Assembly: GCA_944322815.1 (NCBI GenBank)
Contig: CALUQB010000024.1
Coordinates: forward strand, 1-44,534
Source of the DNA: an uncultured Bacteroidales bacterium
GTDB taxonomy: Bacteria; Bacteroidota; Bacteroidia; Bacteroidales; UBA932
Direction: 5' to 3'
DNA length: 44,534 nucleotides
How positions within the stretch are numbered: the first letter of the stretch is position 1; every line of letters begins with the position of its first letter. This document shows, piece after piece, positions 9,408-29,325 of the stretch. Position numbers and translations under genes: made by a program. A model generated the notes under the pieces. It was not told the origin of the DNA. It searched no databases and saw only the letters and a program-made list of their open reading frames with translations.

Positions 9408-10223
9408 TTATTTCCTTAACTGCGGTACTGAAGCGAAGGACTTTTTCATGAAAGCGACTACTGTCCCTATGACTTCCTTCCGGTGTCTCTTCAGGAAATG
9501 CCCCTCGCCCTCGATCAGGTGAAGTTCGCTGTCCTCATATGTCCCGTCATACCTGACACTATATGAATAAGGGACTATCCTGTCCTTTTTTCCATGTATG
9601 ATGCAGACTTTCCCGGTATACAGGCCGGAAGTCTCGTAAACAGGCAGTTTCTGCGCTTCCCTGATGAATTTTCTGCCCAGCTTGTGGAACATCACATTGA
9701 CGTACTCAGGAGGATCGGATGCGTCATATCTTGCACCCATGCATTGTCCGGCCAGGGCATCATCCTTCAGGACTGCTGCAGGCGCCAGCAGAGCCAGACA
9801 GACAGGTTTCCGCGGCGAATCTTCCAGTTTGCCGGCCAGCATCCCGGCCACTACGCCGCCCTGTGAATGGCCTGCAAATCCTATGGCCGAAACATAAGGC
9901 AGGCTGCAGACATAGTCGAACACGGCTTCCGCATCAGCGATTTCATTCGAGATGGTCATGTCCACGAAATTCCCTTCGCTGTCACCATGGGCGTTGAAAT
10001 CGAATCTGATGGAGGCTATCCCCTGCCCGGCCAGCGCCCTGGCCAGATGAGGTATGGGATATATTTTCTTGCAGGACATGAAGCCGTGCATCAGAATGAC
10101 CATGGGACAACGGTCCCGGTCTCTGTCGAATCCTTCCGGAAGCGTGATGGAGGCAGAAATGCCGCCCTGAGTACCATGTATGTCGTACTGCCTTTTCTTG
10201 CTGAAAATCTTGAAAATGGACAT
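9408..10223 (-). CDS. Alpha/beta hydrolase, last gene of the polyene-type operon
   Basis: A 271-residue serine hydrolase without signal peptide. Nucleophile elbow GHSQGG (Ser120), oxyanion strand LMHGF (about 44-48), acid in GKKDRIVP (Asp214) and base in GEGHFL (His242) are all present, so it should be active. The family includes esterases, thioesterases and acyl-transfer enzymes. Because it sits 26 bases after the ligase gene in the same operon, cleaving or transferring an acyl intermediate of the pathway is a reasonable inference, but the substrate is unknown. Confidence 0.85.
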   Translation of the reverse strand: MSIFKIFSKKRQYDIHGTQGGISASITLPEGFDRDRDRCPMVILMHGFMSCKKIYPIPHLARALAGQGIASIRFDFNAHGDSEGNFVDMTISNEIADAEAVFDYVCSLPYVSAIGFAGHSQGGVVAGMLAGKLEDSPRKPVCLALLAPAAVLKDDALAGQCMGARYDASDPPEYVNVMFHKLGRKFIREAQKLPVYETSGLYTGKVCIIHGKKDRIVPYSYSVRYDGTYEDSELHLIEGEGHFLKRHRKEVIGTVVAFMKKSFASVPQLRK

Positions 10224-10249
10224 ATCCGATATTTTATGCAGCCATGCGG

Positions 10250-11581
10250 CTACTGTTTGTAATATTTTCTGTCCAGCTTGCCGTTATATGTTCTCCGGAT
10301 GGAATCCGTCTTTTCATAATAGACAGGGACCTTGTGCGGCTCAAGCTTCGACTTGAGCTCCCTGGCGAGGGCGTGCTTGTCCAGCTCCGCATCGTCTTCC
10401 ATGACCACGAGGAGCTTCAGGACAGTGCCTATGACAGGATGGGTGGCTGCTATGCAGATACAGTCCTTTACCGACGGTATGGAAGACGCAGCGTTTTCGA
10501 TCTCGACAGGGTCTATCTTGTAGCCTCCGACATTGATCACATCCCCCTGACGTCCTTTCAGGTGTATCATGCCGTCCTCATCCATGAAACCGATATCGGC
10601 ACTGTGGATTTTCCCGTCCTGCAACACACGTGCGGTATTTTCCGCATCTGCCACGTAGCCGCTCATGACAGTAGGTCCGGAAATGATGAGATTTCCGTCC
10701 GGACCGATTTCCACGGTGGAATTCTTCATGGGGCGGCCGATGCAGCCTTCCATGTATTTCCCGTCATTGAAATCATAAGTGCAAACAGCCCCGATTTCCG
10801 TACCGCCCAGAGTATTGTACAGACGTGAATGCGGCAGTGCCTTGGCGAGCTGTTCCATGTCGTGGCTGGAAATGGGAGCCGCTCCTGTTTCGATGAAATC
10901 TATCTTGTCCGCCAGAGCGCAGAGCCTGTCATACGAGAACTGCATCAGAAGACGGATGCTGGCAGGCACCAGGAAAGTGGCGAACTTCGTGTAAGGAAGC
11001 CTGAACACATCGAAAAAGGCGTTCATGTCTTTCAGTCCGTCCAGAATACAGACAGTACCGCCCACTGTCAGTATCGGATGCATCTTGAAAAGTGATGCGA
11101 TATGGCTCAACGGTCCGCTTATGATGAACAAGAGTTCAGGAGTGAGGTGGAAATCGCAGATGAAATTATCCGCGCAGGATACCAGGGCCGTCTCAGAGAG
11201 CATGACCCCCTTCGATTTGCCTGTAGTACCTGTCGTATACAGGATGTCCCGGATACCGTCATCGAAGGTACAGGAATCCACCTCCTCCTTGACGGCACGG
11301 AAATTCTCTTCCAGCGCCTTGGATTCGAGAGGTACGGCTATGGCTTTCAGATGATGCACCGCACAGTACGTAACGACGAAGTCTATATCCTGGGTCGCAC
11401 GGTACACATACGGACGGTGAGGTTCAAGTCCCTCCGACTGTAATCCGGCAGCACGTCTGACGATGCTGTCCCATAGTCCGGAATAAGTGATCCGGCTGTC
11501 TCCGCACTCTACAGCCACCTTGTCCGGAGTAGCGACAGAATGAGCATGAATGCTTTCTTCCAGTGTCATGATATGCGTCAT
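10250..11581 (-). CDS. AMP-dependent acyl-ACP/CoA ligase (ANL superfamily)
   Basis: Activates a carboxylic acid as acyl-AMP and passes it to a thiol, probably an ACP of this cluster. Motifs: phosphate loop YTTGTTGKSKG (115-125), GGTEIG, the IGFMDEDGMIHLKGR hinge and the C-terminal catalytic Lys in NGKLDR (Lys435). At 443 residues it is short for the family; the region before the phosphate loop is compressed. The ATG overlaps the ACP stop as ATGA, so the two are translationally coupled. Met5 (11569) is an alternative start. In aryl-polyene clusters such a ligase loads the aromatic starter; the starter here is not identifiable from sequence. Confidence 0.85.
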   Translation of the reverse strand: MTHIMTLEESIHAHSVATPDKVAVECGDSRITYSGLWDSIVRRAAGLQSEGLEPHRPYVYRATQDIDFVVTYCAVHHLKAIAVPLESKALEENFRAVKEEVDSCTFDDGIRDILYTTGTTGKSKGVMLSETALVSCADNFICDFHLTPELLFIISGPLSHIASLFKMHPILTVGGTVCILDGLKDMNAFFDVFRLPYTKFATFLVPASIRLLMQFSYDRLCALADKIDFIETGAAPISSHDMEQLAKALPHSRLYNTLGGTEIGAVCTYDFNDGKYMEGCIGRPMKNSTVEIGPDGNLIISGPTVMSGYVADAENTARVLQDGKIHSADIGFMDEDGMIHLKGRQGDVINVGGYKIDPVEIENAASSIPSVKDCICIAATHPVIGTVLKLLVVMEDDAELDKHALARELKSKLEPHKVPVYYEKTDSIRRTYNGKLDRKYYKQ

Positions 11582-11799
11582 TTGTTCAGTTTTGATTCCA
11601 CGAGGCTGACCAGAGAGTCGATAGACTTGAAATTCCTGGGCGTGACGTCAGTAGCGTCCAGGGTTATGCCGTATTCATCGGAAAGTATCATCAGAATATT
11701 GGCGATATTCAGCGAGTCCAGTTCGCTGAACAGGAAATCCGACCCGAAATCCACTGTAGGGAGCGCGTCGGAGAGAAGGGAAAGGATGTGTTCTCTCAT
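11578..11799 (-). CDS. Acyl carrier protein (ligase-coupled)
   Basis: A 73-residue acidic four-helix carrier with the phosphopantetheine site ELDSLNI (Ser29). It overlaps the exporter stop and the ligase start by ATGA on both sides, which suggests it is the partner of the ligase and carries the starter unit. It is less like FabF-type ACPs than the other two ACPs of the operon, with D-S-L but no preceding G. Confidence 0.85.
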   Translation of the reverse strand: MREHILSLLSDALPTVDFGSDFLFSELDSLNIANILMILSDEYGITLDATDVTPRNFKSIDSLVSLVESKLNK

Positions 11800-14552
11800 A
11801 ATTTATCCGTAAATTCTATATTGTTTACAAAATCTTTTGCCGAAATCTCGGCCACCCGCCGTCTGTCTTCGTCAGGGATGCAGGCTCTCACCCTTATTTC
11901 CGGACGGGAAAGGGCAATGAGCATGGCTTGTTCTCCATAGCCCGGATCATTGAATGAATATGTCTCTCCGGGAGCTGCTTTCAGATCCGGGATTTCAAAT
12001 CCGCGCAGATTCCGCGTGACAGTACGGAGAATCTCTTTCGGCTTGTAAATGTACCTGCCCCTGACCTGCCATACCGGATCGGTCTTACTGCCGGAAAGAA
12101 GTGTTCCGATGGTCACGGGATGCCTGCGCTGTACACCGTTTTTCATGGTAAGCCACCTGAACATCAGCGGCGGAATCAGGTACGACATGAGCACTACGGA
12201 AAACATGCCTATGATAGTCACCTCCGCCAGTGAATGCAAGGCAGGATGCCTGGATACGATCAGCGTACCGATGCCTACGAACATGATGAGAGCGGACTGC
12301 AGGATGCTGACCTTGTACGAACCGAGTATCGGCCGGCGGTACGTATATTCATGCTGGCATCCCTCCGTCATGAATATGGTGTAGTCGTCCCCCTGTCCAA
12401 AAATGAAGGTAGCCAGAATCACATTCACTATGTTGAACTTTATGCCTGCCAAAGCCATGATACCGAGAATCCAGGTCCAGCTGACAGCCATGGGCAGGAA
12501 AGATATGACAGCCAGCTCTATGCGTCCGAAAGAGAACCACAGGAAGAAGAAGACTATCAGCGAACAGGCCCAGCCTATGTAGTTGAAATTGTCTGACAGA
12601 TTCTGTGTGAATGCGCTGTTCATTCCCGCCACATCGAAGCTGTCCTCAAAGCATGACTTCACCGTCTCCACGAGTTCCGGCTCCACATTCAGTATATTCA
12701 CGACATAAGACAGATCTCCGGTCTGAGTCATATTCCGGCTGAAAACGGACGATATCAGAGGGGCGAAAAATTCAATATCCTGCGGTACATAGTCTCCCGA
12801 CTTTTCCGCCAGTGCAAAGAATTCCGAAAAGGCAGTCCTGGAAAAACCTGCCCTGGCAGCCGACTCCGCAAGACCGTCCGTCAGTCCGTACCTGTGTCTT
12901 GAAACGAAATCTTTCCACATTCCGAGACGGTGCCACTGTCCTTCCTCCGACACGAGGAATGCGGATACGCCGCTGTAACCGGCCACCTGCCCGGACGCCA
13001 CCAGGCTGTCTATGACCGGCAAGACGGAAGCATCCTGTGCCAGGGCTTCATCATAGTCTTTCCCGGAAGAAAACACATAGACACTCTGTGCCGTATGTGA
13101 AGTGTTTCCGGCAAGCAGATTCCGGAAATACTGCATATCCTCCCTCTGCCCGTCACTCATGTAATTGATATTCGCCAGGTTCGAATCGAAGCCGGTTCTG
13201 CCGCTGAACAGGAAGAGGATGACCGTGATGACTGCCGTGCATACCACGAAAGGCATGTTCTTTTCAGGGGAAAATCCGGCTATACGGGAGATGACCCTGG
13301 TCCGTCCTGCAGGGACAGGGGTTCCCTTGACGAAGTGCGGCAGGTACAGGAGTACGAAAATGATAGTGCCGACAAGAAGAAGGGATGCGAAGAGACCGAG
13401 ATCCCTCAACGCTGCCGACTGCAGAGGGACCAGTGTCAGGAAAGCTCCCACCGTGGTGATATTTCCTACGACAAGAGGCTGCATCACCTCTTTCAAAGTC
13501 ACCCTCATGTCCGGAGCAAGCGACCTGTGGACTATCAGGTGGAGCGGATAGTTGACCGCAATGCCGAGGATCACGCTCGATATTCCGATGACGATAATGG
13601 ACACGCTGTCGTTCAGCAGCGACATACCTCCGAGAGCGAACAGCCATCCCCACCCTATCGACAGGAACAGAAGCAGGATATTGCGTACCGAACCTATCGT
13701 ATAAAGGACAAGCAATACTATCAGGACCACCGAAAGAGAGATAGCCAGCATGCTGTCCTTCTTGATCCTTTCCGCATTTTCCACGGCTATGGCCGGACCT
13801 CCGGCAATACGGGCCTCTATCTCCGGATATTCGGCTTCCATATCCGATATCGCATCACGGATGAGGGACAACAGTTCGGAATTGTGTTCAGTTTCGCTGT
13901 TCCCGAACGGTGAAGTCAGCATCGCTATGGCACGGCTCATGTCCGGAGTGAATATATACCCGTCATACAGCTCCATGCCAAGCTGCGGGATTTCTGTCCG
14001 AAGCCTTCCCAGAACCGGAGAAAACAGGCCGAGAGGATCCTTCGTGATGCCTGAAACGGCCATGCCTCCCGACGGGAACATAAGCGCACGCTTGTTTTCC
14101 GCCATCCGTCTGTCCGTATACCCCGGCAGGGCCATCAGGCTGTCCATGCGCGCATAGTCTTCATCCGTAAGGAAATAAGGAATATTACCGTAAACGAAAT
14201 CAGACACTTCGGTGATGCGGTCCATATCGAACCTGACCGTCAGATCGGAACACCAGCCGAGAGTATCCCTCTCCGACAGGGCATCCCCGAAATATGACAT
14301 GGCTTCAGTCACCAGGTCAGGGTCATCCGGATTGTTGAAAATGACAAACAGCCTGTCTGCCCCGGAAATATTCCGGTAAATGGAGAAAGCCTCCTGATCT
14401 GAAGAATCCAGAGGAAGGAAATCGCTTATGTCCTCGCTGTATCTCAGATGAAATATCAGGGCCAGGATAATGACTACGGTTCCTGCCAGCGAAAGCCACA
14501 GGATTCTTTTATGACCGGACAGATAATCGTATATTTCAAGAATTCCTTTCAT
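11796..14552 (-). CDS. MMPL/RND-type exporter with C-terminal methyltransferase-like stub
   Basis: Inner-membrane transporter with two RND halves: TM1 near 20-40, a periplasmic domain, TM2-6 (about 265-405), a second periplasmic domain and TM8-12 (about 650-805). The second half keeps the Asp-Tyr pair expected for proton relay (GQGDDYTIFM), whereas the first half reads AVNYPLHL with Asn in place of Asp. After the last helix come about 115 extra residues, including NDPGYGEQAMLIAL and a following strand, which resemble motif I of a class I SAM methyltransferase but stop after half a domain. Start at 14552 (MKGILEIYDY) is preceded by GGAAAAAG and overlaps the upstream gene by 17 bases; 14576 is possible. 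Likely exports the lipid product. Confidence 0.88.
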   Translation of the reverse strand: MKGILEIYDYLSGHKRILWLSLAGTVVIILALIFHLRYSEDISDFLPLDSSDQEAFSIYRNISGADRLFVIFNNPDDPDLVTEAMSYFGDALSERDTLGWCSDLTVRFDMDRITEVSDFVYGNIPYFLTDEDYARMDSLMALPGYTDRRMAENKRALMFPSGGMAVSGITKDPLGLFSPVLGRLRTEIPQLGMELYDGYIFTPDMSRAIAMLTSPFGNSETEHNSELLSLIRDAISDMEAEYPEIEARIAGGPAIAVENAERIKKDSMLAISLSVVLIVLLVLYTIGSVRNILLLFLSIGWGWLFALGGMSLLNDSVSIIVIGISSVILGIAVNYPLHLIVHRSLAPDMRVTLKEVMQPLVVGNITTVGAFLTLVPLQSAALRDLGLFASLLLVGTIIFVLLYLPHFVKGTPVPAGRTRVISRIAGFSPEKNMPFVVCTAVITVILFLFSGRTGFDSNLANINYMSDGQREDMQYFRNLLAGNTSHTAQSVYVFSSGKDYDEALAQDASVLPVIDSLVASGQVAGYSGVSAFLVSEEGQWHRLGMWKDFVSRHRYGLTDGLAESAARAGFSRTAFSEFFALAEKSGDYVPQDIEFFAPLISSVFSRNMTQTGDLSYVVNILNVEPELVETVKSCFEDSFDVAGMNSAFTQNLSDNFNYIGWACSLIVFFFLWFSFGRIELAVISFLPMAVSWTWILGIMALAGIKFNIVNVILATFIFGQGDDYTIFMTEGCQHEYTYRRPILGSYKVSILQSALIMFVGIGTLIVSRHPALHSLAEVTIIGMFSVVLMSYLIPPLMFRWLTMKNGVQRRHPVTIGTLLSGSKTDPVWQVRGRYIYKPKEILRTVTRNLRGFEIPDLKAAPGETYSFNDPGYGEQAMLIALSRPEIRVRACIPDEDRRRVAEISAKDFVNNIEFTDKL

Positions 14553-15702
14553 CTTTTTCCGCAAATTGGGCCGCACTGTCTACCGGATTCGCATAAATCC
14601 CGAGGAAAACAGACCTCAGCCTGTCAATATCTCCGCTTGCGCCGGAAGATCCGAGACTGGACATGTAGCCGATGAACGCTGCCCTTTCTTCCGGAGTATA
14701 ACGGTTTGAATGCGACATGGTTCCGGACAGGATATCGTGTGCGATATAATTGTTCGGCATAAGACGGTATGCCGAACATATCCTCCTGTCGATGAGGGCA
14801 GCGGCCTGGCGGTTGAAATCATTGGACCGGAGGTCCGAATATGGTTCCAGATCCTCTTCCGTGACCGGCCTGCATATACTGAAGTGGACACGGCCCTTGG
14901 GCTGGCGGATTCCGGTCAGTATGCTGTTCAGGTCTTCTCCAGGCTTCTTGGCGTAAGGTCCCTGCTCTCTGGCACACAGTTCCGCGGCCTTGAGGATATC
15001 GCACGGTTCCCACTCATAGGAAACGGCGACAGGGACTATGTTCAGTTCGCACAAGGACCGGACCTTGTCATCTGGTCCTCCTGCCCTGAGCATGTTTATG
15101 ATGCCCTGATCGGTCCTGTCGATGCCGTCTTTCGTCCTTCCGTTCCGCTGCGCTATCCATACGGACTGCCTCTTTTCCAGAACGGTATGGCGGATATATT
15201 CGGAAAGATGCCTGGATGCATTCAGGAATTCGCGCATGCTCCCTCCCGGACGTTCCACCCTGAACATCTTGTTCGACTTGCCGATATCCACGACCAGTCC
15301 GCCCTGCATCAGATTCGCGCCGAATGTGATCTCCGTGGTCTCCAGACCGTTACCGGCCAGAATCATCTGAAGGATGGACGCATCCAGCATGATGTCGCGA
15401 TGATTCGAAACGAAAGTGTACCTTTTCCCAGGATCCAGCCGGCCGATACCGCTGTACGAAAATCCGGTAGTGCTCCTGTCTATGATCTGCCTGTTCATCG
15501 TGTACATCACTTTCATCTGGAAATCACGGATACAGTCTATGTTCCTGACCATCTCCCGGATTTCCTCTACCGGCCGCTCCGGAAAGACGAATGAAGAAAG
15601 TACCGGGAAAAGAGGATCGTCAGCGATACGGTTCATGGCTGCGTGAATCTCACTGTCGCAGTATGGACGGATGTCATCAAACTTGTTTTCTGCTGTTTTC
15701 AT
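14536..15702 (-). CDS. Lysophospholipid/glycerol-phosphate-type acyltransferase
   Basis: A 388-residue PlsC-like enzyme with the motif SNHRDIMLD (His101, Asp107), the Bacteroidota variant of HX4D, followed by MFRVERPGG and WIAQRNGRTKDG, which correspond to the family's substrate-binding and E/N-G-R blocks. No membrane helix is obvious. In related organisms this domain is often found fused between an MMPL exporter and a methyltransferase; here it is a separate gene directly upstream of the exporter. It overlaps the preceding flavoenzyme stop by 26 bases. Probable role: transferring the finished chain to a lipid or glycan acceptor. Confidence 0.82.
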   Translation of the reverse strand: MKTAENKFDDIRPYCDSEIHAAMNRIADDPLFPVLSSFVFPERPVEEIREMVRNIDCIRDFQMKVMYTMNRQIIDRSTTGFSYSGIGRLDPGKRYTFVSNHRDIMLDASILQMILAGNGLETTEITFGANLMQGGLVVDIGKSNKMFRVERPGGSMREFLNASRHLSEYIRHTVLEKRQSVWIAQRNGRTKDGIDRTDQGIINMLRAGGPDDKVRSLCELNIVPVAVSYEWEPCDILKAAELCAREQGPYAKKPGEDLNSILTGIRQPKGRVHFSICRPVTEEDLEPYSDLRSNDFNRQAAALIDRRICSAYRLMPNNYIAHDILSGTMSHSNRYTPEERAAFIGYMSSLGSSGASGDIDRLRSVFLGIYANPVDSAAQFAEKDERNS

Positions 15703-17197
15703 ACCGGTGAATGCTTTCGATTACGTAATTACGTCCAAGAATGGCTTCGCATGTATTTATGGCCGTGAGCGGTACTCCGCAGAAGCCGTGGATATTGCAG
15801 TTCTGGCCTGTCAGCAGCAGGTTCTTCACTTTCGTGACTACCGGCACCTGGGACAGGGCCATATTGTTGCAGTCTTTCGAATATCCGCACATCGCACCTT
15901 CCTTGATACCATAGAAATCCCTTATAGTCAGCGGAGAGGCGGAATTGACAGCTTCCACACAGTCCCTGAAATGCGGATACAGTTCTTCCATCCGCTCCAG
16001 GAGCTTTCCGGCACACACGGCTTTCCACTCCTCATATCCGGCGTCCCTGTGTCCGTAGCGCGAGTTTTCCCAAGGCTTCACATGGTCCCATGTCATGGGA
16101 GCGGTGATGATCATCTTCGTCGAGTACTCTCCCTGTCCTATTTCAGGAGGGGTCATATAAAGGAAACCGAGAGGCCACTCCCTGTCGCTTCTCCCGAAAT
16201 TCCAGATGTCGCCGTAGGTGCTCATATAGTAGCCGGACCAGTTCATGTACCTGAATGTCCCGGGTCTGAGCTTCAGATTCAACGTAAATGCCGAATAGGA
16301 AACCGGGATCATGTCCAGCCTCGTCCTGTAGGATTTCGGAAGGACAGACGGATCATCGAGCAGAGAGATGAACGTGCACGGATGGATCGCGCTGATATAA
16401 TAGTCGGCCGTGTATTTCCTGCCCTTGCGTGTGGTGACTCCCGTTATCAGCTTGTCCGCTGAACTTACATGTTCCACTCCGTCACCAGAGATGACTTCTC
16501 CACCGTTCTCCACTATGACATCGCGCAGTGCCTCGGCAAACAGAATGCTTCCTCCGGCAAACCGGCTTGGCCCGTTTATGTAGAGCACGGAAATCAGCGC
16601 ATGGATATACGCAGGCGTCATCCCCGGCCGGCCGCCATACAGAGGATTCATATAGGCCAGGACGCTCCTGAGACGCTCGTCCGGAATGTACTTGGCGATG
16701 AAACTGTCGGCAGCCATCAGAAAATCTTCCGAATGGACCGTCAAATAGTCGGATGCCGGACGCAGATAGAACATGTCAAGACTGTCGACTATCCTGAACA
16801 AGGCATCAGTATAGGCTGCAAGATTCTGTCTCTGGTCCGGAAAGGACCCGGCCAGTGCCTCGACGAAATTTTCCCTGCCCTGGGCTATCCTGTAGAATTT
16901 CCTGTCTTCCGCGAAATACAGACTGTCTATCATCATGGGGTTCACGTTTTCGACATGAACCCTGTCGGAAATGCCGAGATACCTGCATATCCGTCTGATG
17001 TTGCCGTCCTCCTGCATGCCTCCTATCACATGCATGCCCGTATCGAAGACTTCTCCGAAACGTGTGAAACTCTGCAGACCGCCTCCGATCGTCGCGTTTT
17101 TCTCTATTACAGTCACCTTCATGCCTTCTTTCGAAAGTATGGCTCCCGTAAAGAGACCGCCCAGTCCGCCGCCTATGATCACTGCACTGCCTTTCAT
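15677..17197 (-). CDS. FAD-dependent CrtI/retinol-saturase-like oxidoreductase A
   Basis: 506 residues from the ATG at 17197, which overlaps the preceding stop as ATGA. N-terminal dinucleotide-binding motif VIIGGGLGGL with the following acidic strand VIEKNATIGGG, and a C-terminal FAD-contact segment LLLTGQNCNIHGFCG. This places it with phytoene-desaturase/all-trans-retinol 13,14-reductase-like enzymes, which add or remove hydrogens on conjugated chains. It is an ancient paralogue of the next flavoenzyme upstream, with the same length and layout but divergent substrate region. A much longer open frame extends upstream in the same phase but lies inside the neighbouring gene. Confidence 0.87.
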   Translation of the reverse strand: MKGSAVIIGGGLGGLFTGAILSKEGMKVTVIEKNATIGGGLQSFTRFGEVFDTGMHVIGGMQEDGNIRRICRYLGISDRVHVENVNPMMIDSLYFAEDRKFYRIAQGRENFVEALAGSFPDQRQNLAAYTDALFRIVDSLDMFYLRPASDYLTVHSEDFLMAADSFIAKYIPDERLRSVLAYMNPLYGGRPGMTPAYIHALISVLYINGPSRFAGGSILFAEALRDVIVENGGEVISGDGVEHVSSADKLITGVTTRKGRKYTADYYISAIHPCTFISLLDDPSVLPKSYRTRLDMIPVSYSAFTLNLKLRPGTFRYMNWSGYYMSTYGDIWNFGRSDREWPLGFLYMTPPEIGQGEYSTKMIITAPMTWDHVKPWENSRYGHRDAGYEEWKAVCAGKLLERMEELYPHFRDCVEAVNSASPLTIRDFYGIKEGAMCGYSKDCNNMALSQVPVVTKVKNLLLTGQNCNIHGFCGVPLTAINTCEAILGRNYVIESIHRYENSRKQV

Positions 17198-20587: not shown

Positions 20588-21211
20588 TCATTTCAAATGG
20601 AAGAGTCCCGGGTCCAGGTCTCCGTTCAGCTTTACATCAGTAAAGCTGATAACAGTCAGGTCTCCTGACTGTTCATGCATTTCGATTCCGGAGACAGTGT
20701 TTCTGGCCGGATCGAAATGCAGGACGAGCTTCGTCCACATCTGCAACATGCTTTTCTTCACCGGAACGAGTGTAACCACCCATTCTCCGGCATCTTCGGT
20801 GACAGAAACGTGGAAAGACTTCTCATCTGACAGACATTTTCCCGATACGCTGCCCAACATGAAGCCGGCCATCTCCCTGTACATACGGTTCTTCCTCACA
20901 TCCACGCTGTCTGTACGTCCTTCGTTTTCCAGAAACACAGTATCGCCGTTCACTATGAATATGCTGGAGTATGGTGAAGTATATTCCCACCTCAGCCTGC
21001 CCGGCTGGCTGCAATACATCTTCCCCTCCGACACCATCCTGTCATCAAGTATCTTCATGCTTTTGGTCTGCACGAAGCTGCATTCCAGACTTTCTATCGC
21101 AGCACTTGCATCCTCTATCCGCCTTATCATTTCATCTTCTCCAGCAGACCGGGACACTGCCTGCAAAGGCAGCAGGCACAAGAGGGAAACTATGAAAATT
21201 TGTTTTATCAT
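20588..21211 (-). CDS. LolA-like periplasmic lipid/lipoprotein carrier
   Basis: 207 residues with a signal peptide (LLCLLPLQAVS) and the LolA-type half-barrel pattern: FVQTKSMKILDDRMVSEGK (in part), PGRLRWEYTSPY and IFIVNGDTVF. Standard LolA moves lipoproteins from inner to outer membrane. Homologues encoded inside aryl-polyene-type clusters are thought to ferry the lipidated pigment instead. Lies 19 bases after the transporter gene and 19 before the dehydratase gene. Confidence 0.85.
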   Translation of the reverse strand: MIKQIFIVSLLCLLPLQAVSRSAGEDEMIRRIEDASAAIESLECSFVQTKSMKILDDRMVSEGKMYCSQPGRLRWEYTSPYSSIFIVNGDTVFLENEGRTDSVDVRKNRMYREMAGFMLGSVSGKCLSDEKSFHVSVTEDAGEWVVTLVPVKKSMLQMWTKLVLHFDPARNTVSGIEMHEQSGDLTVISFTDVKLNGDLDPGLFHLK

Positions 21212-21224: not shown

Positions 21225-21587
21225 TCATCTCGCTATCAAATAACATCCTGCCATTATGAGCAATACGCCTGTCCATTTGAGAAAGTCCACTTGCTCATGA
21301 AAGAACACTATGGCCGCTATCATACCGAACACATAACTCAGCGAAACCAGAGGATAGGCCATGCTGAAAGGATAGTGCTTGATGATATGGAACCAAAGCA
21401 GGCTTCCGGCTCCGTAACACAGACCGCAAGCGGCAAACTGCCAGTTCAGAAATACCGATTTCCAGAAAGCAAGGGTCATGGAAAACGGCAACATACGGAC
21501 AAGTGCGAACTTCAGGAGCACCTGTCCTCCGGCCAGCAACAGGCTCTGGACTATGGCTAACAACAGCAGTGGCATCTTACCTGACAT
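21225..21587 (-). CDS. Small 4-TM EamA/SMR-like membrane protein
   Basis: 120 residues forming four hydrophobic helices (about 6-28, 40-60, 68-92, 98-118) with conserved Gly, Pro and Tyr spaced as in half-size drug/metabolite transporters (PFSMAYPLVSLSYVFGM in part). Such proteins dimerise and may flip undecaprenyl-linked or lipid substrates, as with ArnE/ArnF. Start codon overlaps the preceding stop (TGATG). Role in flipping the lipid intermediate is inference. Confidence 0.75.
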   Translation of the reverse strand: MSGKMPLLLLAIVQSLLLAGGQVLLKFALVRMLPFSMTLAFWKSVFLNWQFAACGLCYGAGSLLWFHIIKHYPFSMAYPLVSLSYVFGMIAAIVFFHEQVDFLKWTGVLLIMAGCYLIAR

Positions 21588-23320
21588 CAGTTCCGTACCA
21601 GTACCAGGGCTTTCGCGAATACGCTCTCAGCCTCTTCCGCATCCGGATTTCCGGCAAAGACCGGAAGCATCTCATCGAATGAAACCACCAGGACCGAGCC
21701 GGCTTTCCCGGTACGTATCAGTCTCCCGGCATCGCGCATCGCCCAGTGCGCGGATTCATCTCCGTGCGAATATGTGATATTGTAGCCATGGCATCCCGTC
21801 CTGATGGCGATGGCTGAACTTATGGTATTGTGGGTGCTCAGCATGAACAGTGTCGGTTTCAGATGCTCTTCATCATTGGAAGCGATGTCTTCCAGGAACT
21901 GCATGCTGATATCCAGCATTCCCCTGGATGTCGCCGTGACTATGGCATCAGGGCAGCTGATTCCAGCATCTTTCAGGGCGCGGAACGCCGCCAGATGGGC
22001 CGCTTTCATCAGTTTCCCCATCCTTCTCGACTCCATCGGAGATATGAACTCTTTCAAGTCTGCCAGCATGTCAGCCGAATCCACGGTTTCGCAGGCCGCT
22101 GTCCTTGAAGAAAAAGCGTCCTTGTGCCCAGACTTGGTTTCCGGTCTGTTCCGGCTGATAACCAGAGACGAATCATTGCCGCCGAATCCGAATGAATTGC
22201 AGACTATATTGTCCAACCGGATTCCAGTAGTCCCGGAAGTAGGGGTGATCAGACCGTCAGCCTGTTTTTTCCATCCGAGATTTGCAGGGGTGAAGTCATT
22301 CTGCATGGCCAGCAGACAGATCACCGTCTCTATCGAACCGGAAGCGGACGTAGTATGTCCGGTAAAAGACTTGGTGCTGGACACCTCGGGCATACTGTCA
22401 CCGAAAATCCGTTTCAGGGCCTGGCTTTCCGATGCATCGTTGTTAGGAGTTCCCGTCCCGTGAGCATTCACATATTGGATATCTCCGGACTTCAGTCCGG
22501 CCATTTCCATGGCATCCTTCATGGCCAGATAGGCCCCTTCTCCATTCTCGGAAGAAGCCGTCTGATGAAAAGCGTCACAACGGTTCCCGTATCCGGTCAC
22601 ATAAGCCATGCTTTCAGGAGAATCCCGTTCGAGCACTACAAATGCGGCACCTTCGCCGAGATTCAGTCCTGTCCTCGTATCATCGAAAGGCCGGCACGGC
22701 TTGCTGTCAAGAATCATCAGAGTATTGAACCCGTTCAGGTGATACTTGCTCAGAGATTCCGAACCTCCGGCTATCACGATGTCGGCTTCCCCGTTGTCTA
22801 TCATTTCCGCACCTAAAATGATAGAATTGAGTGCCGAAGAACAGGCCGTAGAGACAGTGCATGTCTCCACCCCACCCAGTCCTGCAAGCTCGGCTATCTC
22901 ATCCGTGCTTTTTCCGCATTCATTGCCATGGGGAATGTCAGGATGCGGTTTTCCGGCCTTCATCTGCAGATAATACCGCTCCGTCAGGTCCATACCTCCG
23001 ACAGTCGTCCCCGATATCAGGACGACACGCTTGCCGCTGATATCCGTTATGCCTGCGTGGGCCAAAGCCTGGCGTACGGCTATCGCCCCCATCAGTGATG
23101 TACGGCTGACCTGTCCCGGAGCAGTGACCCCCAGCATGGACTTCATCTCTTCGTTCGAAAGCTTTACCTCGCCGACAGGCAGATCGGAATGTTTCGATTC
23201 CAGATATTTCATCTGCCCGATACCTGACCTGCCATTCCGCAATGACTCCAGCACCTGTGAAGCATCGTTGCCGATGGCGCAGATGATGCCGAATCCGGTT
23301 ATGGATATGGGAGCGTTCAT
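21587..23320 (-). CDS. Ketosynthase fused to a chain-length-factor-like second domain
   Basis: Residues 1-395 are a complete KAS I/II-type beta-ketoacyl synthase with the triad Cys160 (STACSSA), His287 (NAHGTGT) and His322 (FTGHTTSASG), plus Lys317. Residues about 425-577 match the Ketoacyl-synt_2 pattern (MGKLMKAAHLAAFRAL, ATSRGMLD, LFMLSTHNTISSAIAI in part, VVSFDEMLPVF) that is a stand-alone small protein in many aryl-polyene clusters. The second domain has no active-site Cys. It extends the polyene chain on an ACP; the fused domain may set chain length. The start overlaps the ACP stop as TAATG. Confidence 0.88.
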   Translation of the reverse strand: MNAPISITGFGIICAIGNDASQVLESLRNGRSGIGQMKYLESKHSDLPVGEVKLSNEEMKSMLGVTAPGQVSRTSLMGAIAVRQALAHAGITDISGKRVVLISGTTVGGMDLTERYYLQMKAGKPHPDIPHGNECGKSTDEIAELAGLGGVETCTVSTACSSALNSIILGAEMIDNGEADIVIAGGSESLSKYHLNGFNTLMILDSKPCRPFDDTRTGLNLGEGAAFVVLERDSPESMAYVTGYGNRCDAFHQTASSENGEGAYLAMKDAMEMAGLKSGDIQYVNAHGTGTPNNDASESQALKRIFGDSMPEVSSTKSFTGHTTSASGSIETVICLLAMQNDFTPANLGWKKQADGLITPTSGTTGIRLDNIVCNSFGFGGNDSSLVISRNRPETKSGHKDAFSSRTAACETVDSADMLADLKEFISPMESRRMGKLMKAAHLAAFRALKDAGISCPDAIVTATSRGMLDISMQFLEDIASNDEEHLKPTLFMLSTHNTISSAIAIRTGCHGYNITYSHGDESAHWAMRDAGRLIRTGKAGSVLVVSFDEMLPVFAGNPDAEEAESVFAKALVLVRN

Positions 23321-23577
23321 TATTTTGTCCTGTGTTTTTCTATATAGTCTGCTATGGAACCGATACTTTTGAATATGGCCTTTCCTTCAGATGCATTCGC
23401 GAGCTTGATTCCGTAATATTTGTCCAGAATCACGATTATCTCCAACGCATCGATAGAGTCGAGACCAAGTCCGTCACCGAAAAGAGGGGCATCATCGTCA
23501 ATATCTTCCGGCGTCACGCCTTCCAGATTCAAAGCATCTATAATCTGCTGTTTCAAAGTCAAAATCAAATCTTCCAT
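23320..23577 (-). CDS. Acyl carrier protein (GLDSID type)
   Basis: 85 residues from the ATG at 23577 (MEDLILTLKQ); upstream in-frame Met would overlap the preceding gene. Phosphopantetheine attachment Ser41 in GLGLDSIDALE. Sits between the two ketosynthase-fusion genes and overlaps one by a single base, implying it carries the growing chain for them. Confidence 0.88.
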   Translation of the reverse strand: MEDLILTLKQQIIDALNLEGVTPEDIDDDAPLFGDGLGLDSIDALEIIVILDKYYGIKLANASEGKAIFKSIGSIADYIEKHRTK

Positions 23578-23588: not shown

Positions 23589-25298
23589 TTATATTGTTAA
23601 TATCCTGATATCTGCCTCGAACGTATCCTCGGCGCTGCAATCCACCCATCCCGTGATCATGCTGCTCACATCGGAACAGGAGAAAGTGGCATCCACTATA
23701 TTTCCCATCAACCTCTCATTCCGTTCGTCCAGAATATAGAACGAAGTCTCTCCCCTGTAACCGTTCCTGATGGCCACTTCTCCGGCAGTTATATTCGGCA
23801 AGGTGAATATGGCCAGCGACGGGCTCGGGAAAAATCCATCCCCGCCGCATATCGTGGAGATGTGCTTGCGGTCAGAAACGATGGTCGAAGAACGGTTGAA
23901 GAACACAAGAGCCCTGTTCACGTCAGGAACGGCAGCATTCTCTTCCCTGACCAGCAACTGCGAAGCCACATAAACCAGTCTGTTGAACACATCCATCTTA
24001 TAAAATTTCGGCCAGTCCGTCAGCATCGTCCTGTATATCCATGTCAGCATGGCTTTCCCGCTCTGTTCCACAGGGATATTCCGGCCGTCAATGCTTAGTG
24101 AAGAATCGGTAAGACGTACTGAATGTACGGTTTGAGGATTTTTCTTCACAGCTGCCCCGGAACCGGCGGTCTTTGCCAGGGCTTTCGAATAAAGCAGGGC
24201 ACCGTTACAGCCGCCGAATCCCGAAATGATTTTCAGGAACGAACTTTTGTCCGTCCTGCCCTCTCGGTTGCTTATGGAAATCCGGCCGCTGACTCCGATT
24301 TCATCGAACCCTCTTACCGGAAGAATGCAGCCGTCATCCAGAGCTCTCATCACCAGAACTGCTTCGAGCACTCCGGCAGCACCGAAAGTGTGACCGTAAT
24401 ATCCCTTCAGGGCCGAAACAGGTACGGATGACAATGATGCACGCTCAAGCGCCACCGATTCCATCTGGTCATTGAACATGGTCGCCGTACCATGGGCGCT
24501 GACTACAGCCAGATCATCCCTGTCCCATCCGTCCAGAGTCCCGGATATCACTGCAAGAGTACCCGCCCCGTCCGGAGACGGTGCGCTCAGATGATAAGCG
24601 TCATTGTCCAGACATCCTTTGACCAGCTTCCACTGTCCTGCACCATCTTTTCCGTCATCACATCTGCCGAAAATGACTGCAGAAGCCGCTTCACCCAGGT
24701 TCAGGCCTCTCCGCTCGATATCGAAAGGCCGGCAGTCTTCAGGAGACAGCGACTTGAAAGACTGGAAAACAGCTACTTCAAAAAGAGACTGGCAGTCGAT
24801 TCCGCACACGACTGCATGATCACAGTACCCCGACTCTATCATCCTGTCTGCAAGCAACTGGGCCGTCACGCCGGAGATACAAGCATTGCATACCACTACA
24901 GGATCATTCGTCATACCGAAATACCCGGCTATTTTCCTGGCCGTGCTTCCCGGAGCCAGGTATGCTCCGTCCCGGGCTTCAGTCGGGCCAAGTTCCTCCA
25001 CATTCGCCTTTGTGGTACTTAAAACGAAAAGCGTCCGCGGTGACCTGATGTCCACATCCGCACGTGACAGCGCATCCTCTATTGCCCTTATGGCCAGGGA
25101 TTCGAAACGGGAATACCCGTTGACAGCCAGTTTCTCCCTCTGTTCCCGAGAAAAAAGCGATGCGACAAACCTGTCAGGCACTCCGTGCCAATTATCATAA
25201 GGTGCCAGAGCGGAACGCCCGGCCAGCAAGGCCCGGTAATTCTGCCCGACAGTTTCACCAAGCGGTGAAATGATGCTGTATGACAAGACTCTGATCAT
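23589..25298 (-). CDS. Ketosynthase fused to a degenerate half-ketosynthase domain
   Basis: Start ATG at 25298 overlaps the thioesterase stop as ATGA; a Met eight codons earlier is less likely. Residues 1-375 form a ketosynthase with Cys140 (CNACISG), His269 (SAHGTAT) and His303 (YYGHTFGAAG), with Lys298. Residues about 415-569 (YKMDVFNRLVYVASQLL, RALVFFNRSSTI, PSPSLAIFTLPN, RGETSFYI) look like an N-terminal thiolase half with no catalytic Cys; this block is a separate short protein in many relatives. Probably partners with the other ketosynthase fusion in chain elongation. Confidence 0.85.
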   Translation of the reverse strand: MIRVLSYSIISPLGETVGQNYRALLAGRSALAPYDNWHGVPDRFVASLFSREQREKLAVNGYSRFESLAIRAIEDALSRADVDIRSPRTLFVLSTTKANVEELGPTEARDGAYLAPGSTARKIAGYFGMTNDPVVVCNACISGVTAQLLADRMIESGYCDHAVVCGIDCQSLFEVAVFQSFKSLSPEDCRPFDIERRGLNLGEAASAVIFGRCDDGKDGAGQWKLVKGCLDNDAYHLSAPSPDGAGTLAVISGTLDGWDRDDLAVVSAHGTATMFNDQMESVALERASLSSVPVSALKGYYGHTFGAAGVLEAVLVMRALDDGCILPVRGFDEIGVSGRISISNREGRTDKSSFLKIISGFGGCNGALLYSKALAKTAGSGAAVKKNPQTVHSVRLTDSSLSIDGRNIPVEQSGKAMLTWIYRTMLTDWPKFYKMDVFNRLVYVASQLLVREENAAVPDVNRALVFFNRSSTIVSDRKHISTICGGDGFFPSPSLAIFTLPNITAGEVAIRNGYRGETSFYILDERNERLMGNIVDATFSCSDVSSMITGWVDCSAEDTFEADIRILTI

Positions 25299-25723
25299 AT
25301 CAGTCCCATATCTTTTTTCCATTCTACATAAAAATCAGGACTGTCCCAGAACAGTTTGAAATCCCTGTCCATGAAAACCTGCACACTGCGGGCGGTAAGG
25401 AACACCGTCCCGTTCTCAGGATCGAAGATTTCATAGTCGAAAATGATCTTGGCCGCTTCCACAGGACAATATGTGATCCTGACCACAGGCTTCATCCCGT
25501 ATATCAGCGGATGCTTGTAATCCATAGAAAGTTTGACTATCGGCGCGTAGATATTCTCCTGGATATATTTATGATAAGACAGCCCGTACTTCACCCCGAA
25601 AGCTTCTCTGGCATCCTCCAGATACAGCGGATACGAACCATGCCATACTACATTCATCATATCCACCTCACTGAACCTTATTTCGAACTGTTTTTCGACA
25701 GACAGGACCACATCGTTTTTCAT
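25295..25723 (-). CDS. 4-hydroxybenzoyl-CoA-type hotdog thioesterase
   Basis: 142 residues. The YbgC/4HBT signature is seen as FSEVDMMNVVWHGSYPLYLEDAREAF in parts: the catalytic Asp in SEVDMM and the N/H-x-x-Y-x-x-Y-x-E-x-A-R block. Hydrolyses acyl-CoA or acyl-ACP thioesters and could release or proofread chains. Coupled to the ketosynthase gene by an ATGA overlap. Confidence 0.85.
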   Translation of the reverse strand: MKNDVVLSVEKQFEIRFSEVDMMNVVWHGSYPLYLEDAREAFGVKYGLSYHKYIQENIYAPIVKLSMDYKHPLIYGMKPVVRITYCPVEAAKIIFDYEIFDPENGTVFLTARSVQVFMDRDFKLFWDSPDFYVEWKKDMGLI

Positions 25724-25753: not shown

Positions 25754-26206
25754 TCATTCAATATTCCTGACAGACAGCTTGATTTCCGCAGAGGCTATGA
25801 CTTCCCCTCCGTTTCTGATCTCAGCGACAGCCAGGGTCATCCCGAAAACCTCTTCAAGAATGTCCACTTTGGTGGTTATCACATCTCCGGCAGACGGAAG
25901 ACTGTACACGACATAGTTCCTGACCGCACCTATGAAGCCGACCTGCACATCCTTGTGGAGAATATATTTGTTGTAGAATCCTATTCTGGCGGCACAGGTC
26001 TGCGCTATATTCTCAAGCATTCCCGATGCCGACAGTTTTCCACCGTCCACGAAGATATTACTGTCCCCTATGAGTGTTTCCGTCGTGGAAGTCCGCATTT
26101 CGAAATGTGTCATCCTGCCGATCATGACGAAAGGCTCCTGCTGGGGCAGAATATCATGCACATCTATGGTCCGGAGATATTCCTCCGTATATACAATAGG
26201 TTCCAT
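25754..26206 (-). CDS. Hotdog-fold dehydratase (ApeP-like)
   Basis: 150 residues from the ATG at 26206, which overlaps the preceding stop as TAATG. Pattern DILPQQEPFVMIGRM followed by SGMLENIAQTCAARIG, in which Glu in the central helix is the probable catalytic residue, matches the dehydratase subtype found in aryl-polyene clusters (ApeP-like) rather than classical FabZ. The usual His of the first motif is replaced by Gln (PQQEPF), so activity is not certain. Confidence 0.78.
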   Translation of the reverse strand: MEPIVYTEEYLRTIDVHDILPQQEPFVMIGRMTHFEMRTSTTETLIGDSNIFVDGGKLSASGMLENIAQTCAARIGFYNKYILHKDVQVGFIGAVRNYVVYSLPSAGDVITTKVDILEEVFGMTLAVAEIRNGGEVIASAEIKLSVRNIE

Positions 26207-27084
26207 TACTGCCAAAAATCAAAAAAATTGTACCACTGTGCCGGATATTGGCGCAACCTCTTTTCCAGTTCGGAAACGTATGCCCCGGACAGTTGCCTTA
26301 TCTGCTCCTTCCGCGGACTGTTCCTGTCATAATGAAGAGGCGTCACATATATCGTATATTTTTTCAGTCCGGTCTTCATCACATTGACTGCAAGCACATC
26401 CAGACCGCGCATGGCAGCGACTCTGAAAGGGCCTTGAGGGAATCCGGCAGCCCGGCCGAAAAACATGCATTCCACGCTTTTGGCCTGCCCCATGAATCTG
26501 TCGGTAGGAAAACTTACTATATCCCCGTCACTCAAAGCCTTGTCTATTTCAAACAGATAGTTCATGTCAGCATCCAGAGCTATCATGCTGATGTTTGTCT
26601 TCTCGAACATGCTGTTCCGGTTCGCCATCACAGACGCCTTTTCATCAGCATAAACGACGGCATGAATCGTTTTTCTGTCGGAGACCAGCGAATAACCTGC
26701 GATTTCATAATTCCCTATATGGGAACTCATAAGCAGAAAACCGTCTTCCCGGCCTGCCAGATCCCTGAAACTGTCCATGCCTACGATTTCCACATCGAAT
26801 TTTCTCCCGGCATACATCGCGAACTTGTCTATCACAGCCTGTGCGAACTGACAATGATTGACATACGTAAACCATGCGGCCTTCAGCGGTCCATATCCAT
26901 GGATATGCCTGAAATACCGGTATGCCGTTTTCCTGCTGTAGTTCAACAGCAGGCAGACAGGGACGACGAAAACCGAAGCGAAAAGATATGCAAGACGCAC
27001 ATCGGCATGCCGCAGAAACGCAATCAGCCAGCTGTGCATCCTGCTGTTTCCGTAAGTCGTTCCTGCCCATTCCCTGCGGCTCAT
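26206..27084 (-). CDS. LpxL/HtrB-like lipid acyltransferase
   Basis: 292 residues with an N-terminal hydrophobic segment (about 30-48) and HX4E in SHIGNYE (His122, Glu127), plus the C-terminal WYNFFDFW that is typical of lipid A late acyltransferases. In aryl-polyene and flexirubin-type clusters a homologue probably attaches or primes the acyl chain on a membrane lipid. The start lies three bases after the ACP gene, so the acyl donor is likely that ACP. Confidence 0.87.
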   Translation of the reverse strand: MSRREWAGTTYGNSRMHSWLIAFLRHADVRLAYLFASVFVVPVCLLLNYSRKTAYRYFRHIHGYGPLKAAWFTYVNHCQFAQAVIDKFAMYAGRKFDVEIVGMDSFRDLAGREDGFLLMSSHIGNYEIAGYSLVSDRKTIHAVVYADEKASVMANRNSMFEKTNISMIALDADMNYLFEIDKALSDGDIVSFPTDRFMGQAKSVECMFFGRAAGFPQGPFRVAAMRGLDVLAVNVMKTGLKKYTIYVTPLHYDRNSPRKEQIRQLSGAYVSELEKRLRQYPAQWYNFFDFWQ

Positions 27085-27087: not shown

Positions 27088-27330
27088 TCAGTTTACCTTG
27101 CTTTCGATATAGTCGCAGAATTTGGAGAATGTATCCACGCCGGCCATCTCCTCGGCCTTTATCTTGAATCCGAAATTCCTTTCCACGATCACAACGATGT
27201 CAACGAAATCAAGGCTGTCGATTCCCATATCATCCTTCAGCTTGGCTTCCGGAAAAATCTTGTCTTCATCGATCTCGAGTTCCTCCACCAGAAAGTCCCT
27301 GACTTTCTTCTCTATTTCCATACGGTCCAT
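27088..27330 (-). CDS. Acyl carrier protein (GIDSLDF type)
   Basis: 80 residues; phosphopantetheine Ser39 in MGIDSLDFVD. Strongly acidic with classical ACP helix II (DIVVIVERNFGF). Met4 is an alternative start. Third gene of the operon, directly ahead of the LpxL-like acyltransferase. Confidence 0.9.
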   Translation of the reverse strand: MDRMEIEKKVRDFLVEELEIDEDKIFPEAKLKDDMGIDSLDFVDIVVIVERNFGFKIKAEEMAGVDTFSKFCDYIESKVN

Positions 27331-27353
27331 AATAATCCTTATATTTTAGTTGG

Positions 27354-28580
27354 TTACTGTCTGAATTTCTTGATAATCAATGCGCTGTTCGTACCTCCGA
27401 AACCGAACGAATTGCTGAGCACTGCATTGACTTCTGTATGTACAGTCTGTCTGGCTATGTTCAGACAGGCTGAATATTCGTCAGGTTCATCCAGATTTAT
27501 GTTCGGAGCCACGAAATCATTCTGCATCATGATTAGCGAATAAACCAGTTCGCTCGCTCCGGCCATCCAGCACTCGTGCCCTGTCATGCTCTTCGTACTG
27601 CTTATCAGGGCATGTTTCCCGTGGAAAAGCTTGTCGATAGCCATGGCTTCGAACATATCCCCCTGACGTGTACTGGTAGCATGGGCGTTGATATAGTCTA
27701 TGTCATCAGGAGTCATGCCGGCATCCTTCATGGCACGGGCCATAGCCCTGACACAACCTTCATCGCTCGGCTGGCTGATCACCGGTGTTCCGTTCGACGA
27801 GAATCCGTAACCGGTCACTTCCGCGATGACATTGGCCCCGCGGGCCACAGCATGGTCGTAATCCTCCAGTATGAGCGCTGCAGCACCGCCGCTCGGCACA
27901 AGCCCGTCCCTGTTCCTGTCGAAAGGGCGGCTGGCTTTGGCTGGCTCCTGCATGTTCTTTGAAAACGCTCCCAGTGCATCGAAGGAGGCCATGGAATAAA
28001 AATTGGTTTCCTGTGCACCGCCGCAAAGAACGACATCCTGCAGTCCGTTCCGGATAAGCATGTATGCAAGTCCTATGGAATGACTTCCGCTGGCACAGGC
28101 GGCACTGACAGTGAAATTCACTCCCTTGAGCCTGTAAATGGTACTCAGGTTCATGGTGACGGTAGAATTCATCGCCTGGAATATGAACGACTGTCCCAGA
28201 AGTTCGGTATCATGCTTTTCATCCATGATTCTGGCAGCCTCTATCACCGGCTTGGCAGAAGAATCATTGCCGAATATACAGCCGACTTCATGGTCTTCCA
28301 GATATTTCTCATCGATGTCTGCCATTTTGAAAGCCTGGGCACTGGCCATGAAGGCATACTCGGCCTCTTCGGAAAGCCCGCGGCGCAGATGGCGGTCTAT
28401 AAGTCCTTTCAATACCGGTTTTCTCACTATTCCTGTCAAGGCTGACTGGTATCCGTATCCAAGCCTCTCCTCCTCGATGCCGATACCGGACTTTCCTTCG
28501 AGCAAGGATTCCCTGACTTCGTCAATATCTGTCCCTATGCAGGACCATATTCCCATACCTGTAATTACTACCCGTTTCAT
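27354..28580 (-). CDS. Stand-alone 3-oxoacyl-ACP synthase (FabB/FabF-like)
   Basis: 408 residues with Cys162 (SAACASGS), His300 (NAHATST) and His335 (KSMTGHECWMAGAS), and a C-terminal GFGGTNSALI. Complete KAS I/II enzyme without the extra domain of the other two ketosynthases in the operon. The sequence HECWMAG in place of the common HxLGAAG is unusual. Likely starts or extends the chain with malonyl-ACP. Confidence 0.9.
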   Translation of the reverse strand: MKRVVITGMGIWSCIGTDIDEVRESLLEGKSGIGIEEERLGYGYQSALTGIVRKPVLKGLIDRHLRRGLSEEAEYAFMASAQAFKMADIDEKYLEDHEVGCIFGNDSSAKPVIEAARIMDEKHDTELLGQSFIFQAMNSTVTMNLSTIYRLKGVNFTVSAACASGSHSIGLAYMLIRNGLQDVVLCGGAQETNFYSMASFDALGAFSKNMQEPAKASRPFDRNRDGLVPSGGAAALILEDYDHAVARGANVIAEVTGYGFSSNGTPVISQPSDEGCVRAMARAMKDAGMTPDDIDYINAHATSTRQGDMFEAMAIDKLFHGKHALISSTKSMTGHECWMAGASELVYSLIMMQNDFVAPNINLDEPDEYSACLNIARQTVHTEVNAVLSNSFGFGGTNSALIIKKFRQ

Positions 28581-28596
28581 CGAACTCGCGTCATAA

Positions 28597-29325
28597 TTAA
28601 TACAAACCTCCGTTTATGCTGATGACTTCGCCGGTAATATAGCCGGCCTCGTCGGAACAAAGGAACCCTACAAGCGAAGCTACTTCTTCAGGTTTCCCGA
28701 AACGCTTCATTGGCACCAGCTTTTTCAACTCGTCCTGCGGCAGATCCTTCGTCATATCAGTCTCTATGAATCCAGGAGCCACGGCATTCACTGTCACGTT
28801 ACGTGGTGCAGTCTCCTGAGCCAGGGCTTTCGTGGCCCCGATCAGCGCAGCCTTGGCAGCACTGTAGTTTGTCTGCCCTGCCATACCCTTGAGACCCGAC
28901 AGGGATGTCATATTCACTATACGTCCTCCATGCCCGCGCATCATCATCTTGGGCAGAAGTTGTCTTGTGACATTAAAGAACCCGTGCAGGGTGACATCTA
29001 TGACAGAATGCCAGTCTTCGGCCGGCATCATGAACATCAGATTGTCCTTCCTTATCCCGGCATTGTTCACCAGATATGCGATATAATCGTCAGGATGTGC
29101 CTGCTCCCATGCTTCCAGCCCGCGGCTGACTTCATCCGCGTCCGCGACATTGAACCTGAGCAGTTCCGCATTTCCTCCGGAAGACAGGATCTCGCCAAGG
29201 ACTTCCTCCGCCGCTTTCTGATTTGACTGATAGTTTATGATGACGGGGATTCCCATCCGTGAGAGTTTAAGACAAACGGCCCGACCAAGACCGCGGGAAC
29301 CTCCGGTGACCAAAGCATATTTCAT
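28597..29325 (-). CDS. 3-oxoacyl-ACP reductase (FabG-like SDR)
   Basis: 242 residues from ATG 29325 (MKYALVTGGSRGLG). Classical short-chain dehydrogenase: cofactor loop TGGSRGLG, NNAG, catalytic Ser141, Tyr154 and Lys158 (SLSG and YSAAK), and C-terminal GEVISINGG. Reduces 3-oxoacyl-ACP with NADPH. First gene of the operon; it is the only ketoreductase in it, so it must serve every cycle. Confidence 0.9.
   Translation of the reverse strand: MKYALVTGGSRGLGRAVCLKLSRMGIPVIINYQSNQKAAEEVLGEILSSGGNAELLRFNVADADEVSRGLEAWEQAHPDDYIAYLVNNAGIRKDNLMFMMPAEDWHSVIDVTLHGFFNVTRQLLPKMMMRGHGGRIVNMTSLSGLKGMAGQTNYSAAKAALIGATKALAQETAPRNVTVNAVAPGFIETDMTKDLPQDELKKLVPMKRFGKPEEVASLVGFLCSDEAGYITGEVISINGGLY

Follow-up and report, generated by a model that had tools for sequence, protein, structure and literature searches.

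How does an aryl-polyene operon begin its product when both of the enzymes that usually supply the starter are missing? The question is raised by contig CALUQB010000024.1 of an uncultured Bacteroidales bacterium, whose whole length of 44,534 nucleotides is the window analysed here and which belongs to an assembly of 2.68 Mb in 64 contigs (93.9% complete). Open reading frame (ORF) calls combined with Pfam and NCBIfam models place 20 co-directional genes on its minus strand, from 29337 or 29325 down to 9408, with intergenic distances of -41 to +30 bases, which confirms the closely packed run described in the initial annotation. Judging from gene content and distribution, we think it probable that one lineage dispensed with the tyrosine ammonia-lyase (TAL) FlxA and the ligase FlxY and instead loads an acid directly onto an acyl carrier protein (ACP) reserved for this purpose, here called ACP3.

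In the established route of Chitinophaga pinensis, FlxA was shown in vitro to be a TAL and FlxY a 4-coumarate-CoA ligase, according to the available part of the report (PMC3992019). The annotated Persicobacter cluster likewise has an ammonia lyase first and an AMP-binding protein last. In neighbouring Bacteroidales clusters the lyase adjoins the ketoreductase (KR) gene (five of the six ORFs of about 500 residues that were tried), and one such lyase passes FlxA_rubin_TAL (845 vs 700), the ligase of the same cluster passing FlxY_rubin (700 vs 520). As for our genome, PF00221, the ammonia lyase family, is absent from the contig and from the rest of the assembly; the whole genome gives no match to FlxA (NF053541) at E<=1e-200, to FlxY (NF053551) at E<=1e-100 or to UbiC (PF04345), so that the lyase absence seen in the window extends to the genome and the proposed search for an ammonia or chorismate lyase elsewhere found neither. 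The lack of a lyase by itself has precedent among aryl-polyene clusters, since those of the E. coli type have none, and their ApeH charges an ACP with 4-hydroxybenzoate derived from UbiC, as far as the accessible text of PMC8253772 goes. All-against-all grouping of unannotated ORFs from 30 swapped-type, 25 FlxY-type and 46 other loci disclosed no starter-making gene shared by the swapped-type loci; the largest groups resemble LolB2-like proteins or antisense frames, the member of the first family scoring below the NF053540 cut-off.

The end of the operon, where FlxY stands in known clusters, is occupied by a class I AMP ligase of another kind. Its best BLASTP alignment with FlxY has an E value of 0.14, i.e., no BLAST relation, and among the 93 NCBIfam families that match it the best 25 all remain below their cut-offs and do not include the FlxY model. 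Feruloyl-CoA synthetase is the closest solved structure both by sequence and by fold; MatB, McbA, MenE and 4CL are nearly level with it in the fold search, and PltF with PigG is also among the matches. Because the top matches are so nearly level, no substrate can be deduced from the fold. The Asp of the amino-acid adenylation (A) domain motif, which presumably holds the alpha-amino group, aligns with an Ile (I161, nearly invariant in 24 rows), which suggests that the acid used has no alpha-amino group; an identity as an amino-acid A-domain was rejected on the same ground. When the origin of the ligase was sought across the phylum, its own genome was the only one among 395 to match at E<=1e-55. 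Two loci that share sequence, L050 and L119, carry a distant FlxY-like ORF (29% identity) in addition to the ligase.

The evidence tying this ligase to ACP3 comes from 80 named loci and stretches of relatives, in which the ligase was found in 30 loci besides our own and FlxY in 25 (the 31 ligase loci are 30 distinct ones, L013 and L043 being identical). ACP3, searched with phmmer at E<1e-12, is present in a single copy in all 31 ligase loci and in none of the 25 FlxY-type loci, the sole weaker match being another ACP in L027. The two genes are adjacent in every ligase locus except L051, where a distance of about 2 kb separates them and their strands are opposite; in L042 ACP3 comes after the ligase, and in six loci (L013, L043, L014, L015, L059 and L080; five distinct) both form one open frame. 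An order-wide search gave seven further loci, five of them new and two sharing sequence with loci already used; ACP3 adjoins the ligase in all seven, with other polyene genes near in five (L116 via L016). Fusion is a classic sign that two proteins work together, and with the 4-base overlaps it supports ACP3 as the acceptor of the ligase, so we infer that ACP3 is the carrier of this enzyme; fusion and neighbourhood establish the link between the two, and the acid charged may be an aryl starter. A PDB search with ACP3 gave weak matches throughout, with peptidyl and aminoacyl carriers among the nearest (best E 1.3e-5). In L053 (16587-19733) ACP3 lies in frame with the end of the MMPL gene (residues 950-1049 of a stop-to-stop frame), a possible exporter-carrier fusion.

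The scenario that we favour would run as follows. In the known route FlxA turns tyrosine into 4-coumarate and FlxY converts this to coumaroyl-CoA, and both enzymes are missing here. Instead, the ligase would convert a carboxylic acid and ATP to acyl-AMP and transfer the acyl group directly to the phosphopantetheine of ACP3; the ketosynthases (KS) would extend the bound starter with malonyl units, the KR and dehydratases (DH) would leave conjugated double bonds, and acyltransferases (AT), glycosyltransferase (GT), MMPL and LolA would anchor and export the polyene. The load of ACP3 is accordingly taken as the starter and the product as putatively coloured. Another acid than usual, or a scavenged one, probably starts the pigment; it is most likely aromatic and drawn from the general pool or the surroundings. 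With FlxA and FlxY lost and the ligase-ACP3 pair present, a non-standard starter, as first proposed, is the best reading, while the saturated derivative suggested beside it received no support. The impression that no starter enzyme is visible was right about the lyase and FlxY but passed over this putative starter-loading pair, whose presence is the real difference from known flexirubin clusters.

The distribution of the genes agrees with such an exchange. The order-level set of 393 genomes includes 90 with FlxY and 85 with FlxA (79 with both, 6 with FlxA alone, 11 with FlxY alone); eight have the ligase, and none of these has FlxA or FlxY. In 50 named genomes, whose completeness is not given, a TAL-type PF00221 protein (508-551 bits, split by a score gap from the histidine type at 621-640 bits) is present in 12 of the 19 FlxY-type genomes and in none of the 27 ligase-swapped ones or of the 4 without an assigned type. 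Among those genomes of the window's genus set that have fused matches to KS and chain length factor (CLF), PF00221 is missing from G000, G014, G035, G055 and G060, as well as from G084 of another family, and is of the histidine type only in G040 and G059. Fisher values, with kinship ignored, are 4.8e-7 order-wide and 1.3e-6 for the named genomes.

Several observations weigh against the exchange as we read it. A quick KS tree of 78 rows needs three ligase-type changes over 47 labelled rows, and a paired test has one to three pairs and cannot reach significance; with so few independent swaps, the small Fisher values overstate the case, and the association of the ligase with the loss of FlxA and FlxY is clear as history but weak as replicated evidence. 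Genomes with FlxY but no FlxA number 11 of 90 at the order level and 7 of 19 among the named ones, so that the lyase can be lost independently of the new ligase, and two swapped-type genomes keep a PF00221 protein of the histidine-lyase type. The ligase-ACP3 pair also occurs without convincing polyene genes nearby (L118) or with MMPL only (L122). Finally, those residues of the KS starter pocket that could be mapped are alike in the two ligase types: the position of ApeR Tyr135 is Ile, Val or Leu in both, with Phe202 and Leu229 kept (15 swapped-type and 5 FlxY-type KS_R), and ApeO Phe205 is conserved in 28 and 17 KS rows. These residues were rejected as a reader of the starter, as they do not discriminate and speak neither for nor against an aryl starter. 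The order-level genomes with FlxY and no FlxA (G077, G158, G226, G235, G260, G290, G314, G367, G399, G437 and G439) are possible halfway states in which the lyase had already been lost.

These halfway states would also fit a simple displacement: the cell would go on using 4-coumarate (or cinnamate) as its starter, obtained from gut contents rich in plant matter, and the new ligase would only do the work of FlxY in a different way. The lyase looks as if it had become dispensable first, many loci come from metagenome-assembled genomes (MAGs) of ruminant or horse gut, and feruloyl-CoA synthetase is the nearest solved structure. Against this, malonyl-, succinylbenzoyl- and other acyl ligases rank almost as high by fold, which says little on substrate, and the pair is also present (L045) in Prevotella amnii, a species of the human vagina. 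We regard this displacement as rather unlikely. Still less likely, in our opinion, is a decoration module, in which ligase and ACP3 would attach an acyl or aryl group to the anchor, be it lipid or sugar, and an ordinary acyl-ACP would prime the polyene. Free-standing A-domain and carrier pairs such as DltA-DltC do such decoration, the weak carrier matches of ACP3 include peptidyl and aminoacyl carriers, and L118 and L122 have few or no polyene genes near the pair; but decoration leaves unexplained why the pair is always accompanied by the loss of both FlxA and FlxY, and the ligase sits at the operon end, where known clusters have FlxY.

It could also be imagined that the lyase exists in the real genome and was merely lost from an incomplete, 64-contig MAG. 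TAL-type lyases are, however, found in none of the 27 named and none of the eight order-level genomes with the ligase, and an assembly gap is therefore hardly credible. The exchange for direct acid loading thus remains our preferred explanation.

The remaining machinery supports a lipid-anchored aryl-polyene or flexirubin-like operon, and the earlier assignment to this class is upheld by synteny with Bacteroidota clusters. The FlxB-type KR and LolA2 both pass their NCBIfam models, pointing to flexirubin membership; the aryl polyene type II polyketide synthase set (KR, two DH, thioesterase (TE), GT/AT, LolA, MMPL) is present together with a KS bearing a half-size ApeC-like CLF. The CLF profile finds AbApeC best in the PDB (7f28_A, E 3.8e-10), FabF (1j3n, 1.2e-8) ranking between it and XdApeC (6qsp_B, 5.7e-8). 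An Arg pair of the half CLF is invariant in 13 rows and resembles Arg30-Arg31 of AbApeC, as given in the consulted portion of PMC8358021.

The cluster on plasmid pPP6 of Persicobacter psychrovividus reads lyase, KR, KS, ACP, AT, methyltransferase, DH, TE, KS, CLFx, ACP, KS, CLF, deacetylase, LolA, a LolB2_flexi-passing protein, DH, GT, MMPL, FAD protein, C45 peptidase and AMP ligase. Our operon shares with the C. pinensis and Persicobacter flx clusters the order KR-KS-ACP-AT-DH-TE-KS-ACP-KS-CLF-LolA-DH-GT-MMPL-FAD. In contrast to Persicobacter, it has no lyase, methyltransferase, deacetylase, C45 peptidase or FlxY-type ligase, and adds an SMR protein, a second FAD protein, a separate AT and the ACP3-ligase pair; compared with flx clusters, KS and CLF are fused and FlxA TAL, FlxY and DarA were not found. 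Proteobacterial Ape clusters (E. coli, Xenorhabdus) have in common with it the KS with half-size CLF and the absence of a lyase, and their ApeH, which charges an ACP directly with acid in the available parts of PMC8253772 and PMC8358021, resembles our ligase in its proposed action. The ligase, however, shares only 23% identity with Klebsiella ApeH across 175 residues, and UbiC as a source of 4-hydroxybenzoate is missing. An aryl starter made without ammonia lyase is also known for arcuflavin and xanthomonadin (XanB2 chorismatase with an AMP ligase; PMC3949708, seen in part), but no chorismatase-like gene was seen here; the PF21168 search matched 0 of 15 genomes, and its control also matched nowhere. 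Free-standing pairs such as DltA/DltC and PltF/PltL likewise encode ligase and small carrier together, and differ from ours in the amino-acid Asp, the polyene operon setting and the natural fusions.

Fusion of KS and CLF was considered as a mark of the variant, being found in 28 of 29 swapped-type rows, and rejected as a lineage trait rather than a cause, as 5 of 18 FlxY-type rows are also fused (L013 and L043 identical; Persicobacter counted twice). The CrtI-like pair, at first thought odd, is part of the normal family set: both copies best match the single FAD protein of the Persicobacter cluster (L114; 32% and 34%), that of C. pinensis (L106) has one homologue (36%), and carotenoid desaturase and isomerase models match below cut-off. 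No cluster-type methyltransferase was found in the genome at E<=1e-5, in line with the original observation. The missing dar pair was borne out for a DarA-like homologue, which the genome does not contain (the query, named from an adjoining gene that passes the DarB model, does find C. pinensis; DarB was not searched), but not as an oddity: a DarA-like gene occurs in 3 of 19 FlxY-type and 0 of 26 ligase-swapped genomes, and dar genes are commonly missing in this order. A dar-like gene pair lies inside a Prevotella polyene cluster (L066, 12850-14918), its DarB passing NF053539 (560.9 vs 550), and similar pairs occur in L068, L081 and L082 by ORF grouping only.

Table. Features of the operon and its upstream region, listed from the 5' end of the operon
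Feature	Position	Strand	Basis
Candidate TAnnTTTG element upstream of KR	29397..29404	-	motif match
KR, FlxB-type SDR	28597..29325	-	NCBIfam FlxB_rubin_SDR NF053542, 393.2 bits vs cut-off 340; ORF open to GTG 29337
FabB-like KS, ApeR-like	27354..28580	-	PF00109/PF02801; 62% identity to Persicobacter KS
ACP1	27088..27330	-	PF00550
LpxL-like acyltransferase	26206..27084	-	PF03279
FabZ-like DH, ApeP-like place	25754..26215	-	weak FabZ model; 34% to same-place Persicobacter gene
4HBT thioesterase	25295..25723	-	PF13279
Second KS fused to half CLF-like domain	23589..25322	-	PF00109/PF02801; Persicobacter KSx and CLFx match as two pieces
ACP2	23320..23577	-	PF00550 on longer ORF; start set by Persicobacter comparison and gene spacing
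KS-CLF single chain, ApeO-ApeC-like	21587..23320	-	PF13723 at residues 424-574; CLF profile vs PDB
SMR/ArnE-ArnF-like small membrane protein	21225..21587	-	PF00892; ArnE/ArnF models below cut-off
LolA2-type chaperone	20588..21211	-	NCBIfam LolA2_flexi NF053544, 184.7 vs 125
FabZ-like DH, ApeI-like	20194..20568	-	PF07977
GT2-acyltransferase, ApeJ-like	18680..20212	-	PF00535 + PF01553
CrtI/CrtD/CrtISO-like flavoprotein 1	17194..18687	-	PF01593; carotenoid models below cut-off
CrtI/CrtD/CrtISO-like flavoprotein 2	15677..17197	-	PF01593; start set by relatives and gene spacing
PlsC-like acyltransferase	14536..15702	-	PF01553 below cut-off; place conserved
MMPL/RND-type exporter	11796..14576	-	PF03176
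ACP3, 73 aa	11578..11799	-	PF00550, 22.6 bits vs 20.8; 4-base overlap with MMPL and with ligase
AMP ligase, not FlxY; proposed starter:ACP3 ligase	10250..11581	-	PF00501 + PF13193; model pLDDT 89.1
Alpha/beta hydrolase, neighbour, orientation not conserved	9408..10223	-	PF12146 and others

This gene order is found again in many Bacteroidales, so the arrangement is not due to chance. The hydrolase was found in five of nine relatives examined, in four of the five on the strand opposite to the ligase, and the conserved core is therefore the 19 genes from KR to ligase. Tight same-strand spacing continues past 9408, where a DUF3575 gene follows after a 9-base gap, so that gene spacing does not fix where the transcript ends. 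The TAnnTTTG element is what we take to be a Bacteroides-type -7 element.

Clusters for aryl polyenes rank with the most common biosynthetic clusters of gut and rumen genomes, and to our knowledge their Bacteroidales versions are uncharacterised. In the literature searched, whose coverage is partial and leaves key subscription papers outside, we found no description of a ligase-ACP3 start. Since the two starter systems are separable by sequence alone, a large group labelled 'flexirubin-like' or 'arylpolyene' is predicted not to make flexirubin, and the starter acid is directly testable because the ligase-ACP3 pair is small and soluble. Tentatively, and with more doubt than belief, we suggest that the pair scavenges an aromatic acid from the diet or the community, so that host diet rather than the cell's own tyrosine would determine which head group the outer-membrane pigment of gut Bacteroidales carries, and perhaps also how it is coloured and how strong an antioxidant it is. 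For Prevotella and rumen Bacteroidota, aryl-polyene clusters have been described in the form of antiSMASH calls (PMC8241843, PMC8549736, PMC6469967, PMC12940132); in 8,160 rumen genomes as a whole, 2,800 aryl-polyene clusters were called (PMC8241843).

Some minor features deserve mention. A BD-FAE (PF20434) esterase is encoded within or next to polyene operons, whichever of the two ligases these have (L018, 8159-9028, and similar), and L027 has a radical SAM and B12-binding protein (12239-13606) at the place of the relatives' methyltransferase. Downstream of our operon, positions 1684-6726 encode two large DUF4988/BACON proteins, probably surface proteins, and a PD-(D/E)XK transposase fragment (22-513) lies at the contig end.

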